Below, in pieces: positions 11,293-48,965 of a stretch of 64,000 bases of DNA (positions are counted from its first letter, which is position 1; the number at the start of each line of letters is the position of its first letter). The notes below the pieces were generated by a model. It worked only from the letters and a program-made list of their open reading frames with translations, ran no database searches and was not told the DNA's origin. Where the stretch lies: positions 1-64,000 of the forward strand of contig JAPUEB010000030.1 of assembly GCA_027492795.1 (NCBI GenBank). The letters run 5' to 3'. This DNA is from Chryseobacterium sp. GTDB taxonomy: Bacteria > Bacteroidota > Bacteroidia > Flavobacteriales > Weeksellaceae. The position numbers and the translations under genes are program-made.

Positions 11293-11337
11293 TGGGTTTT
11301 CAGGTTTATAATGTAGGTTTTTACTTTAAAATTTTTC

Positions 11338-11487
11338 AACCACAAAAGTCACAAAAGATTTAATCTTTCTGATATTAAACCCTTTCAAAATGAGCGAACA
11401 AAAGTTTGAAAATTAGAGATTTTCACTATTGTTTTCTTTATATACGCAATAAATTCCATTTCAAAATCTTTTGTGCCTTTTGTGGTT
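11338..11487. repeat. AACCACAAAAG inverted-repeat element between CBS gene and nadK
   Basis: Arms of 23 nt (11338-11360 and 11465-11487) match in 22 positions after reverse complementing. The element fills nearly the whole gap between two genes transcribed in the same direction, so its transcript could fold into a long hairpin. Confidence 0.82.
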
Positions 11488-11496
11488 CAAGTTCTT

Positions 11497-18693: not shown

Positions 18694-18776
18694 GTTTGTG
18701 TTGGAGAGTTTGAGTGTTGGAGAGTTTTATTTTTATGTGTTTTAAATTTTTACTAAAAATAATTGCGCAAAATTTG

Positions 18777-18836
18777 TCATTCCGAAGGAATCTAAACAAT
18801 GTGAATTAAACAATTTAGATTCCTTCGGAATGACAA
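18777..18836. repeat. Palindromic repeat, GTCATTCCGAAGGAATCT family
   Basis: Arms GTCATTCCGAAGGAATCTAA and its exact reverse complement flank a ~20-nt loop between mutS and the DUF2809 gene. It is preceded by GCGCAAAATTT, a sequence also present beside the same stem in both MITE copies. Confidence 0.8.
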
Positions 18837-18876
18837 AAAAACTGAAAGATTCTACTTTAACATTGATCTCCCAAAA

Positions 18877-28928: not shown

Positions 28929-29312
28929 TTAATCTTGCAATCCGTTTACAACTCTTTTTACTCCGTTTTTGAAAAGTGGTGAATGAAAGTTTAAAATCAT
29001 TCCCAATTTCAGTTTTGTTAATCTCAGATAGTTGCGAAGTTGAAAGCAGTAATAATCTGTAATTTCTGGAACGGCTTTGTTTTCTACAATTACTTTATCC
29101 TCAACCAGCATATCTACTCTAAAAGCTCTTTCTATTGTGAGTTCTTCATAAATTATTGATATTTCCTTTTGTCTCTCAACTTTTAATCCTGCTTTTTTAA
29201 GTTCATACTCCAAACATTGTTCATAAACACTTTCATAAAGACCTACTCCGAGTTTGCGATGAACTTTCATACCGCAATCAAAAATTATTTTTGAAATCTC
29301 ATTTTCAGTCAT
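28929..29312 (-). CDS. GxxExxY protein (PD-(D/E)XK-like)
   Basis: 127 residues with the family-defining GLYESVY motif (about residues 24-30), followed by YELKKAGLKVERQK, the core FRVDMLVEDKVIVENKA with its Asp and Glu-x-Lys, and the LRNYLRLTKLKLGMILNF segment. This family is PD-(D/E)XK-nuclease-like and very common in Bacteroidota; its function is unknown. The gene interrupts the dcw cluster between murC and ftsQ and is bracketed by direct copies of a repeat, so it looks like an inserted guest. Confidence 0.85.
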   Translation of the reverse strand: MTENEISKIIFDCGMKVHRKLGVGLYESVYEQCLEYELKKAGLKVERQKEISIIYEELTIERAFRVDMLVEDKVIVENKAVPEITDYYCFQLRNYLRLTKLKLGMILNFHSPLFKNGVKRVVNGLQD

Positions 29313-36402: not shown

Positions 36403-36428
36403 TTGATAAATGATGATTGATAAATGAT
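36403..36428. repeat. Left inverted repeat bracketing the four-helix-bundle gene
   Basis: 26 nt made of two TTGATAAATGAT-type units. It matches the reverse complement of 36822-36847 in 24 of 26 positions. Confidence 0.85.
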
Positions 36429-36450
36429 ATGCAATTCGACTTCTCAAATT

Positions 36451-36816
36451 CTATTTTTTTAAATCTTCCCCAAGTTTTTTCTTGTAGGCGGATGTTACAT
36501 TCAATATTTCGATTGCTTCTTTTTTAAATAATTCTAACAATTCTAAATTCTTCATCATATTTACTGCTTCTATTACTTCAAGCCAAAAAAGTGTTTCGTC
36601 TGCTTCCTCTACAACAATGCAAATTTTTGCATATTTCTCGTTGTTTGACCTTGCTCTACACATCGCTCTATAATTTGATGCGGAAGAACTTGAAGATTTG
36701 AAAATCTGTTTTCTTATAACAGAAACTTTATCTGAATATGGGAGTTCTGATAATTCATTAATGATGTCTATTGACAATTTCTTTGTTCTATCCGAAAAAA
36801 TCTTGTTATAATCCAT
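36451..36816 (-). CDS. Four-helix-bundle protein (23S rRNA intervening-sequence type), copy 1
   Basis: 121 residues, all-helical, with the family pattern: YNKIFSDRTKKLSIDI start, KSSSSSASNYRAM in the second helix (here KSSSSSASNYRAMCRARS) and EADETLFWLEVIEA in the third. The family was named for proteins encoded in intervening sequences of 23S rRNA genes and also includes the Avd protein of diversity-generating retroelements. No rRNA or retroelement lies here: the gene interrupts the dcw cluster between mraY and murE and is bracketed by 26-nt inverted repeats. Probably an RNA- or DNA-binding scaffold; function unknown. Confidence 0.88.
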   Translation of the reverse strand: MDYNKIFSDRTKKLSIDIINELSELPYSDKVSVIRKQIFKSSSSSASNYRAMCRARSNNEKYAKICIVVEEADETLFWLEVIEAVNMMKNLELLELFKKEAIEILNVTSAYKKKLGEDLKK

Positions 36817-36821
36817 CTCAA

Positions 36822-36847
36822 ATCATTTATCAATTATCATTTATCAT
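36822..36847. repeat. Right inverted repeat bracketing the four-helix-bundle gene
   Basis: Composed of ATCATTTATCAATT-type units; mirrors 36403-36428. The arm fits between the ATG of the four-helix gene and the murE stop. Confidence 0.85.
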
Positions 36848-42763: not shown

Positions 42764-43525
42764 ATGATTTTTAAAACTAAACAAAAGAAAAAATTCACTT
42801 TCATCGAGGAGGGAGAAGGTCGTCCTATAGTCTTGTTACAAGGACTTATGGGAGGATTGAGCAACTTCACAAAACTGATTGAATTTTACTCGAAAAGAGG
42901 CTATAAAGTTTATTTTCCAAACCTTCCTATATACGATTTGTCTATTTTAAATACCAATCTTACAAGCCTTGCGAAATATGTTGCAAGATTTATAGAGGAA
43001 GAAGTGGGAGAACCTGCAATTGTTGTAGGAAATTCTATGGGTGGTCATGTTGGGCTTATTCTTACTTTATCACGTCCAGAATTGGTAAAATATCTTGTAC
43101 TAACGGGAAGTTCTGGACTTTATGAAAGAAGTTTTGGCGATAGTTTTCCAAGAAAAAACGATAGAGATTATATCCGAAAAAAAGCCGAGGAAGTTTTTTA
43201 CGATCCTTCTGTTGCTACAGAAGCACTTGTAGATGAGGTTTTTTCAGTTGTAAATGACCGCGGAAAAGGCATTAAAACCGTAATGCTCGCAAGAAGCGCC
43301 ATCAAACACAATATGGAGCCCGAACTTCATAAAATAAAAGTTCCAACCTGCATTATTTGGGGGAAACAAGACAACGTAACACCTCCTGAAGTTGCCACAG
43401 AAATGGATCGATTAATTCCTGATTCCGATCTTTTTTGGATTGATAAATGTGGACACGCTGCCATGATGGAAAAACCCGACGAGTTTAATGATATTCTTTA
43501 TGATTGGTTGAAATCCAGAGAATGA
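42764..43525 (+). CDS. Alpha/beta hydrolase
   Basis: 253 residues with the alpha/beta-hydrolase fold: oxyanion-side LLQGLMGGLSN, nucleophile elbow VVGNSMGGHVGL (Ser in GNSMG near residue 91), acid in IIWGKQDNVTP and catalytic His in DKCGHAAMMEKP. Cytoplasmic. In Flavobacteriia this gene is usually beside engB, and here only a four-helix-bundle cassette separates them. The substrate is unknown. A TAATTTTG -7-like element at 42735-42742 precedes it by 21 nt. Confidence 0.85.
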   Translation: MIFKTKQKKKFTFIEEGEGRPIVLLQGLMGGLSNFTKLIEFYSKRGYKVYFPNLPIYDLSILNTNLTSLAKYVARFIEEEVGEPAIVVGNSMGGHVGLILTLSRPELVKYLVLTGSSGLYERSFGDSFPRKNDRDYIRKKAEEVFYDPSVATEALVDEVFSVVNDRGKGIKTVMLARSAIKHNMEPELHKIKVPTCIIWGKQDNVTPPEVATEMDRLIPDSDLFWIDKCGHAAMMEKPDEFNDILYDWLKSRE

Positions 43526-43552
43526 TGGAGTAATTGGGAAATAGAGTGATAG
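43525..43552. repeat. Left inverted repeat bracketing the second four-helix-bundle gene
   Basis: ATGGAGT and ATAGAGTGAT words. Reverse complement agrees with 44028-44055 in about 21 of 28 positions. The arm starts at the stop codon of the hydrolase gene. Confidence 0.75.
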
Positions 43553-43623
43553 GGTGATTGATTTATAGAGTTGCTTGATTTAATTGTAGAAATTTTTGTA
43601 ATTTGTTATAAATTATTTTTTTT

Positions 43624-44013
43624 ATGTCAGCAATAAAATTTCATAAAGAACTTAAAGTTTATCAGGCTGCGTTTTCGACAGCAATGGAAATTTACTTTTT
43701 ATCAAAGAACTTCCCAAAAGAGGAAACCTATTCTCTTACAGACCAAATTCGACGTTCTTCTCGTTCTGTGTGTTCAAATATCACAGAGGCATGGAGAAAA
43801 AGAAGATACCCTAAATATTTCGAGTTTAAATTATCCGATTCTGAAGGTGAAGCAGCCGAAACACAGAATTGGTTGGATTTTGCTTTGGCTTGTGGATATA
43901 TTTCATCCGAAAAACATAACGAATTATATAAAAAATACGATGCAATTATTGGAATGATCGTCAACATGATAATTAATTCCGAAAAATGGACAATTAATAA
44001 TAAGGACAGCTAA
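43624..44013 (+). CDS. Four-helix-bundle protein (23S rRNA intervening-sequence type), copy 2
   Basis: 129 residues. Family pattern FHKELKVYQAAFSTAMEIYF start, TDQIRRSSRSVCSNITEAW (second helix, highly characteristic), and the SDSEGEAAETQNWLDFALACG third helix. Divergent from copy 1 at 36451 and closer to the classical family. It lies between the hydrolase gene and engB, bracketed by inverted repeats unlike those of copy 1. Not associated with rRNA. Function unknown. Confidence 0.92.
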   Translation: MSAIKFHKELKVYQAAFSTAMEIYFLSKNFPKEETYSLTDQIRRSSRSVCSNITEAWRKRRYPKYFEFKLSDSEGEAAETQNWLDFALACGYISSEKHNELYKKYDAIIGMIVNMIINSEKWTINNKDS

Positions 44014-44027
44014 TTTAACACTCATCT

Positions 44028-44055
44028 CCATCACTCTATCAGTCTATCACTCCAT
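44028..44055. repeat. Right inverted repeat bracketing the second four-helix-bundle gene
   Basis: CCATCACTCTATCAGTCTAT and following TCACTCCAT mirror the left arm at 43525-43552. It lies 18 bp before the engB ATG. Confidence 0.75.
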
Positions 44056-44073
44056 AACTCCCAAACTTAAAAC

Positions 44074-44694
44074 ATGGTCCTAAAAACCGTAGAGTTCATA
44101 AAAAGTTCCCAAAAATGGCAGGATTGTCCAGAACCGAATTTACCTGAATACGCCTTTATCGGACGGTCCAATGTGGGAAAATCATCATTAATCAATGCAA
44201 TGATGAACCGAAAAGATTTGGCAAAAACCTCCCAAACTCCGGGAAAAACGCAGCTAATCAATCATTTTTTGGTGAATGAAAGTTGGTATCTTACGGATTT
44301 GCCGGGTTACGGCTATGCAAAAGTTTCGAAAAGCACCAGAAAGGATTTTGAAAAACTGATTACCAATTATATTTTAGAGCGAAAAAACTTGGTAAACCTT
44401 TTTGTTTTGGTTGATTCTCGACACACTCCGCAAAAAATCGACCTTGAATTTATGGAATGGTGCGGCGAAAGCGGCGTTCCGTTTTCCATAGTTTTTACCA
44501 AAGCGGATAAATTGAAACCAAACGCAGCGGTAAAAAACGTTGAAATTTACAAAAACAAAATGCTCGAATTTTGGGAAGAACTTCCGGAAATGTATATTAC
44601 TTCTGCAGAAAAAAAAGAAGGTACAGAAGAAATTTTGAAATATATTGGAAAAACGAATGATTTTCTGGCGAAGAATAAAGTAAAATTTGATTAA
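44074..44694 (+). CDS. engB: Ribosome biogenesis GTPase EngB/YsxC
   Basis: 206 residues. G1 [10 protein letters not shown]2 [10 protein letters not shown]3 [10 protein letters not shown]4 TKADKL and G5-region ITSAEK. The small EngB family assists assembly of the large ribosomal subunit. ATG at 44074 immediately after the repeat arm. The gene ends 6 bp before the next AACCACAAAAG inverted-repeat element. Confidence 0.96.
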
Positions 44695-44700
44695 AGTTTA

Positions 44701-44853
44701 AACCACAAAAGGAACAAAAGAAAAAGAAATTTTAAAGATTATCCAAAGGACACCAAAGAAAAATCAAAGATTTTTAGACTTTTGTGGTCTTACAAAGTCA
44801 AAAAAAAAATACATCTTTTTTATAAAACAGAAACTTTTGTGTCTTTTGTGGTT
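44701..44853. repeat. AACCACAAAAG inverted-repeat element between engB and the ElaA-like gene
   Basis: Arms of 20 nt (44701-44720 and 44834-44853) match in 18 positions. Extra CTTTTGTGGTC (44785-44796) lies inside. No gene within. Confidence 0.82.
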
Positions 44854-44866
44854 TAAAAAATACATT

Positions 44867-45310
44867 ATGGTAGTTTATCATATCAAAACTTTCAACGAGC
44901 TATCAGTTTCGGAACTTTACAAAATTCTGAAAGCAAGAATTGATGTTTTTGTGGTAGAACAAAACTGTCCCTATCCCGATTTGGATGGTTACGACGATAA
45001 AGCCGTTCATCTTTGGGCAGAAGAAAACGACGAAGTTTTGGCGTATTGCAGGATTTTCGATAAAAAAATTAAATATCCCGAAGCTTCCATCGGCCGAGTT
45101 TTGACAACGGAAAAGGCTCGTGGAAAAAACCTTGGTCGCCAATTAATGAAATTTGCTGTTCAAACCATTGAAAATCGGTTGGAAACTTCTGAAATACGCA
45201 TTTCTGCACAAGATTATCTTTTGAATTTTTATCAAGAATTCGGTTTTGAAGACACCGGAAAAAAATATTTGGAGGACGATATTCCACACACCGAAATGTT
45301 GAGGAGATAA
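44867..45310 (+). CDS. ElaA-like GNAT acetyltransferase
   Basis: 147 residues from ATG 44867; ten further codons upstream come from a repeat arm and are dropped. The ElaA signature ELYKILKARIDVFVVEQNCP is followed by PDLDGYDDKAVHLWA and the acetyl-CoA-binding GRVLTTEKARGKNLGRQLM. It is a GNAT-fold N-acetyltransferase of unknown substrate. The stop codon lies 1 bp from the end of the convergent msrA gene. Confidence 0.88.
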   Translation: MVVYHIKTFNELSVSELYKILKARIDVFVVEQNCPYPDLDGYDDKAVHLWAEENDEVLAYCRIFDKKIKYPEASIGRVLTTEKARGKNLGRQLMKFAVQTIENRLETSEIRISAQDYLLNFYQEFGFEDTGKKYLEDDIPHTEMLRR

Positions 45311-48898: not shown

Positions 48899-48965
48899 GT
48901 TTGTCATTCCGTAGGAATCTAAATTATTTGAGCAATACTGTTGAGATTCCTACGGAATGACAAAC
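48899..48965. repeat. Palindromic repeat, GTCATTCCGTAGGAATCT family
   Basis: GTTTGTCATTCCGTAGGAATCT and its reverse complement (AGATTCCTACGGAATGACAA) flank ~24 nt. It resembles the central stem of the MITE but lacks the TIRs. Confidence 0.8.

Follow-up and report, generated by a model that had tools for sequence, protein, structure and literature searches.

Inverted word arrays enclosing four-helix-bundle genes at bacterial operon junctions suggest a widespread small genetic element

Introduction

Between an alpha/beta-hydrolase-like gene and an engB-like gene of a Chryseobacterium genome lies a small gene for a putative four-helix-bundle protein, with short repeated words on one side and their inverted counterparts on the other. 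A preliminary description had noted that a second gene of the same family nearby is enclosed in the same manner, had held that this was hard to ascribe to chance, and had suggested that the protein is recruited to, or inserted into, such hairpin sites. The locus therefore raises the question of whether the enclosure is a property of the gene family and, if so, whether the arms belong to the site or to an element that carries the gene.

A comparable arrangement is known from the intervening sequences (IVSs) of rRNA genes. As described in the excerpted text of PMC4990558, a 28-bp terminal inverted repeat of the Coxiella IVS loops out an S23p open reading frame (ORF), RNase III cleaves the stem, and IVSs have been proposed to be mobile. 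The rRNA inserts of bacteria of the CPR are also reported, in the extract of PMC11270868, to contain IVP ORFs.

Results

We analyzed a stretch of 64,000 nucleotides of the source genome (here called the window). The gene in question is an ORF of 129 amino acids at 43624 to 44013, and all of the features of its unit lie on the plus strand. Upstream is the alpha/beta-hydrolase-like ORF (42764 to 43525, with its stop codon at 43523 to 43525), and 1 base past that stop begins the 5′ arm, a C-poor word array (GGAGTAATTGGGAAATAGAGTGATAGGGTGATTGA; 43527 to 43561). The 3′ arm, with the words inverted (TCCATCACTCTATCAGTCTATCACTCCATAACTCC; 44027 to 44061), ends 12 bases short of the ATG, at 44074, of the engB-like GTPase gene (44074 to 44694). 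That inverted repeats enclose the copy between the hydrolase gene and engB, as had been claimed, was borne out by two methods that agree: a repeat search paired 43520 to 43550 with 44030 to 44060 (31 nt, 74% complementary), and a gapped alignment paired 43527 to 43561 with 44027 to 44061 (score of 30). In the predicted minimum-free-energy RNA fold of 43520 to 44073, the arms pair and the ORF forms the loop; the unit folded alone has a predicted energy of −124 kcal/mol (z of −3.6), and 0 of 100 shuffles was predicted to be equally stable.

Judged by its profile matches, the 129-amino-acid product is a member of the PF05635/TIGR02436 rRNA intervening-sequence (IVS/S23) four-helix-bundle family. 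It matches PF05635 (23S_rRNA_IVP) over residues 8 to 113 with an E value of 2.1e-33 and 115.1 bits (cutoff, 33.8) and TIGR02436 (four helix bundle protein) with 103.4 bits (cutoff, 24), and by sequence its probable relatives of solved structure are 2gsc (E value of 2e-11) and 2rld (E value of 3e-5), with five chains per entry. Similarity to the bAvd and Avd models was weak, at 32.3 bits (cutoff, 40) and 24.1 bits (cutoff, 80), both below the cutoff. No other ORF inside the unit matched a family. An Rfam search of 43400 to 44900 found no rRNA at the unit, which sits between the hydrolase gene and engB; its single match, below the threshold, fell on engB. The unit thus has the terminal inverted repeats of an rRNA IVS but not the location within rRNA, and because it combines IVS anatomy with a position outside rRNA, it is IVS-like without being an rRNA IVS.

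The second family member in the window, copy 1 (locus L013), occupies 36451 to 36816 on the minus strand, and gapped alignment places its arms, also on the minus strand, at 36819 to 36846 (5′ arm; TGATAAATGATAATTGATAAATGATTTG on that strand) and 36404 to 36431 (3′ arm). The words at copies 1 and 2 had been called unrelated, which is correct for these two copies.

To score arms, we aligned the 250 nt upstream of each ORF with the reverse complement of the 250 nt downstream. The score of 30 obtained for the 43624-to-44013 copy was matched by 5 of 1,000 dinucleotide shuffles and is therefore only moderately unusual taken singly, while the score of copy 1 (46) was reached in none of 1,000. The family has 13 copies in the source genome, and 12 of these scored at least 30, versus 13 of 391 other ORFs drawn from the window and from 20 stretches of 20 kb of the same genome (Fisher P = 2e-15). 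Among control ORFs matched for size, 4 of 89 scored at least 30, and these four exceptions were two Y1/RAYT-like transposase genes and two GxxExxY genes (names read off the translations, with GxxExxY confirmed by TIGR04256). The exception among the 13 family copies, L012, has direct rather than inverted words. Each copy bears its own word, and the copies share no fixed terminal inverted repeat. Enclosure by inverted words is thus not a matter of chance at the level of the family, and what had been suspected from two copies holds for 12 of the 13; the outcome named beforehand as contrary to it, random genes being enclosed just as often, was looked for and is absent (13 of 391 ORFs, 4 of 89 when size matched).

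Other repeats of the source genome were noted in passing. Y1/RAYT-like transposase genes, so named from their translations, have palindromic REP-type flanks (L032:4376-4810, L032:9991-10533, and L018:17842-18294), and near-perfect palindromes of the form GTCATTCCG(A/T)AGGAATCT... lie at 18773 to 18837 and 48899 to 48965 of the window, with similar ones elsewhere in the genome.

How general is this frame? Over five sets of loci, most of them best-scoring search matches rather than random draws, the inverted score exceeded the 95th percentile of partner-swapped flanks at 108 of 184 loci and stayed at or below that threshold at the other 76. By set, the fractions above it were 12/13 in the genome itself, 16/30 among the best matches in the family, 31/53 on contigs of named genomes, 12/28 among the best matches in the phylum, and 37/60 where there were several copies per genome. 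The named-contig set retained 53 of 59 loci (neither L141 nor L153 was entered; L104, L109, L110, and L139 were left out for short flanks or ORF calling), and the phylum set retained 28 of 30 (L168 and L171, near contig ends, were dropped). Direct repeats with a score of at least 30 were scarce throughout (2/13, 3/30, 3/53, 2/28, and 4/60, in the same order). According to their record titles, the arm-bearing loci include members of the Bacteroidota, Acidobacteria, Nitrospirae, Phycisphaerales, Verrucomicrobia, and Candidatus Niyogibacteria. PF05635 proteins were present in 84 of 100 genomes sampled from the host family (Weeksellaceae) and, across the phylum (Bacteroidota), in 153 of 198 sampled genomes. 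The architecture is real and recurrent, and it suggests that a small genetic element able to enter operon junctions is widespread.

Every arm consists of short, degenerate words in an array, and the words vary from locus to locus. Read inward, the 5′ arms are nearly free of C (237 C versus 1,119 G, with G exceeding C at 103 of 110 loci), unlike the ORF and the DNA further upstream, which have almost no G/C skew. Since a three-letter arm could not fold strongly on itself, we infer that pairing between the arms would be favored. The words also follow the protein. Among loci whose arm score was at least 26 (110 of 184), arm similarity between loci sharing no neighbor climbed with protein identity, from 10.4 (25 to 30% identity) to 13.2 (50 to 60%) and 18.0 (>60%), a correlation reached by 0 of 300 label permutations, although with the short flanks available some orthologous pairs may have gone undetected; when only pairs across taxon groups were counted, it was reached by 1 of 500. 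Furthermore, a single junction in different species can hold different protein subfamilies with different words, and there are independent insertions with different words at one junction (L002 versus L074/L078; L094 versus L077/L079/L095). That words differ at one junction and track the protein, not the site, makes the arms look like part of the element. Similar words did not repel one another inside a genome: within-genome pairs did not differ from between-genome pairs.

Two arrangements recur among these loci. Eight species (L006, L096 to L099, L101, L103, and L106) retain a four-helix-bundle unit at the junction of rmlB-like and rmlA-like genes, with words in both arms of the TTGAGT type in seven species and of the TTTAGTGG type in the source genome. 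In several genomes, two four-helix-bundle genes lie ~1.63 kb apart (L196/L197, L217/L220, and L221/L223), and both junctions flanking one acyltransferase-like gene appear to be occupied.

The 5′ arm starts a median of 2 nt past the upstream stop codon (n = 101), and a median of 8 nt separates the end of the 3′ arm from the next ATG (n = 92). Both neighbors are codirectional with the gene at 148 of 178 loci, versus 218 of 380 gene triples in the source genome. At the window locus, the hydrolase and engB homologues adjoin each other without a family gene in all 29 of 29 relatives, which marks the window copy as an insertion. The engB spacers inspected in these relatives are 12 to 110 nt long, and many hold short terminator-like hairpins; none of the words of the window copy was found in them. 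The idea that the gene was inserted into hairpin sites therefore stands in its first half but not in its second: there was an insertion, but the words differ at one junction, track the protein, and are missing from the spacers of the relatives, which argues against hairpin sites that were there first.

Two junctions illustrate what becomes of such units. At the MoxR-DUF58 junction of one genus (118 genomes searched, 30 loci read), the gene region lies between TAGGTAGCAGG-type words in 17 of 30 loci, several of them truncated, and the remaining 13 are gene-less, with the words retained in most. Three gene-less loci (L303, L304, and L305) retain a piece of the 3′ end of the gene, and so at least some gene-less word pairs are relics. 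The intact genes are under purifying selection (median dN/dS of 0.105; 35 pairs, 9 genes of equal length). At hpt-adk, where 30 loci were also read, 3 had the gene, 10 had words without the gene, and 17 had neither by the score used, although L323, one of the 17, shows clear 5′ words by eye. With gene-less word pairs present at two junctions, the arms may have come first and the gene later at some sites.

If the arms served as an RNA stem under continuing selection, G·U pairs might be expected in excess over A·C mismatches on the coding strand. There was no such excess (81 versus 123), and hence there is no sign of selection for an RNA stem. Own arms did not match better than arms swapped between orthologues at MoxR-DUF58 (7 up, 8 down of 17; P = 0.95), and over 12 orthologue groups the effect was weak (23 up, 15 down of 40; P = 0.035). 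Arms that lack fine coevolution and G·U bias suggest that the complementarity dates from the birth of the element and was not kept by constant selection on an RNA stem. As for mobility, the best pair among the 13 copies of the source genome has 77% identity and the median is 27.6%; there are thus no recent paralogues, active transposition is not seen, and the copies within the genome are old and divergent. At same-strand junctions, 148 genes were sense and 13 antisense (148/161), but the sense orientation carries no weight as a mark of an RNA-level element, since ordinary genes are about equal (218 sense and 27 antisense; 218/245). We also rejected a reverse transcriptase as the mover: the source genome (97% complete) had no RVT_1 match, and RVT_1 was absent from 10 of 14 copy-rich genomes and found in 4.

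A second kind of gene is framed in a similar way. GxxExxY (TIGR04256) genes lie between word arrays at 28929 to 29312 of the window (minus strand), at L155 to L159, and at L250 to L278, with words in the source genome such as CTCGCAGATTT, GCCACGAATGCACGAAT, and AACCACAAAAGTCACAAAAG. There, 5 of 5 exceeded the swapped 95th percentile, which for this set was drawn from 20 swapped pairs only; in the wider family, 13 of 29 exceeded the swapped threshold, and 8 of 29 had direct repeats too. The GxxExxY units may be a parallel element family. Gene-less hairpins with AACCACAAAAGTCACAAAAG words occur in many copies (window ~44703 to 44795 and 11334 to 11360 with 11463 to 11489; also L029, L016, and L027), and these words are those that flank the GxxExxY gene L158.

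Discussion

We propose that the window feature is probably one copy of an IVS-like element whose arms are its own. The unit would consist of an inward-pointing word array, a PF05635 four-helix-bundle ORF, and an inverted word array, and it would insert together with its arms, replacing the spacer between codirectional genes from just past the upstream stop to just before the next start. The ORF would be expressed from the transcript of the host operon, the arms could pair into a long stem that loops out the ORF, as happens in 23S rRNA IVSs, and the protein family would recognize its own word class. Spread seems to be rare and largely between genomes; the unit would then be inherited vertically and decay until only a word pair without the gene is left.

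Several other accounts were weighed. The units could be domesticated operon regulators. Binding of the protein to the word stem within the polycistronic mRNA would then adjust the translation or stability of the gene downstream, and the arms would serve as an operator, not as transposition ends. A 3′ arm ending a median of 8 nt ahead of the next ATG would cover its start region, the protein is under purifying selection, the words associate with it, and orthologous units persist across genera, as at rmlB-rmlA in eight species. The gene, however, is often gone while the words remain, the neighboring genes are unrelated to one another, and a wobble or covariation signal is absent; we consider this account unlikely. 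A two-part system of the REPIN/RAYT kind, with inverted words spread by another enzyme (a Y1 transposase or a GxxExxY nuclease) and the four-helix-bundle gene as cargo, seems to us less probable again. Its ingredients are present in the source genome, where Y1/RAYT genes have palindromic flanks, inverted words enclose GxxExxY genes, and gene-less solo word hairpins occur, but the recurrent solo hairpins bear GxxExxY-type words, a solo pair of the four-helix type was noticed once (L016:18533), and, in contrast to a REP family, the four-helix copies have one word each.

The arms might also have arisen passively, from slippage-born word arrays that pile up at operon junctions, where local fold-back DNA synthesis would yield the inverted match whichever small gene lay there. 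Word arrays are indeed found without these genes, and the arms diverge without coevolution. This account is already strained by the size-matched control, in which 4 of 89 genes were framed, all of them of mobile type or GxxExxY, and it also sits poorly with words that track the protein and with the inward C-free polarity at 103 of 110 loci; we regard it as highly improbable. Last and least credible is a retroelement-like satellite that a reverse transcriptase, assisted by an Avd-like protein, would move by way of an RNA intermediate. The weak bAvd similarity is in its favor, as is the statement, in the portion of PMC10053308 consulted, that DGR Avd and PF05635 are homologous; against it, both models score below the cutoff (bAvd, 32.3 of 40 bits; Avd, 24.1 of 80), and RVT_1 is missing from the source genome and from 10 of the 14 copy-rich genomes in all.

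Returning to the IVS-like element, we put forward a broader reading only tentatively. The units might belong to a broad, undescribed bacterial class of “operon-junction intervening elements,” made of a small protein and its matching inverted, inward C-free words, cotranscribed with the operon, and entering gaps between cotranscribed genes. Decay of such elements would leave solo hairpins, the class would include the parallel GxxExxY nuclease-like proteins, many short word arrays in the intergenic DNA of the Bacteroidota, and perhaps TAACTGA-type arrays of other phyla, would be remains of its members, and rRNA IVSs would be the special case in which a member had landed in rRNA. The shared architecture (self-matched inverted words, junction insertion, and a decay series) turns orphan PF05635 genes into a testable class of elements and ties together rRNA IVSs, Avd-like proteins, and intergenic word arrays that have lacked an explanation. 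The literature searched, from which most subscription papers were excluded, described no word pairs around either PF05635 or GxxExxY genes and yielded no role for PF05635 proteins.

Among known systems, the TAACTGA arrays invite comparison. The excerpts of MacGregor (2015; PMC4679880) place arrays of this heptamer immediately ahead of start codons in Bacteroidetes, Cyanobacteria, and Beggiatoaceae and note that some of them overlap the preceding stop codon; the terms S23, 23S, and four-helix did not turn up in a search of that text. They resemble the present arrays in lying right before start codons and differ, as far as those excerpts go, in being described as direct repeats; by this analogy, TAACTGA arrays could perhaps be the remains of such elements. 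REP/REPIN sequences with RAYT genes are likewise small intergenic inverted short repeats, both solo and gene associated, in the source genome, but the window unit is without a Y1 transposase and its word is not common to the copies of one genome. Diversity-generating retroelements share a distant protein similarity through Avd (bAvd), but the models score below the cutoff and the source genome is without a reverse transcriptase match. Unlike the members of an insertion sequence or MITE family, each copy has its own word, and there are no near-identical copies (median of 27.6%, best of 77%). The closest parallel is with the 23S and 16S rRNA IVSs with S23p or IVP ORFs (Coxiella and Leptospira), which, in the excerpted accounts, share the PF05635 family and an ORF looped out by terminal inverted repeats. 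Units of the window type differ from them in lying between protein genes and not in rRNA, in having locus-specific tandem word arrays as arms, and in occurring as many divergent copies per genome. The architecture is best read as a variant of the IVS kind.
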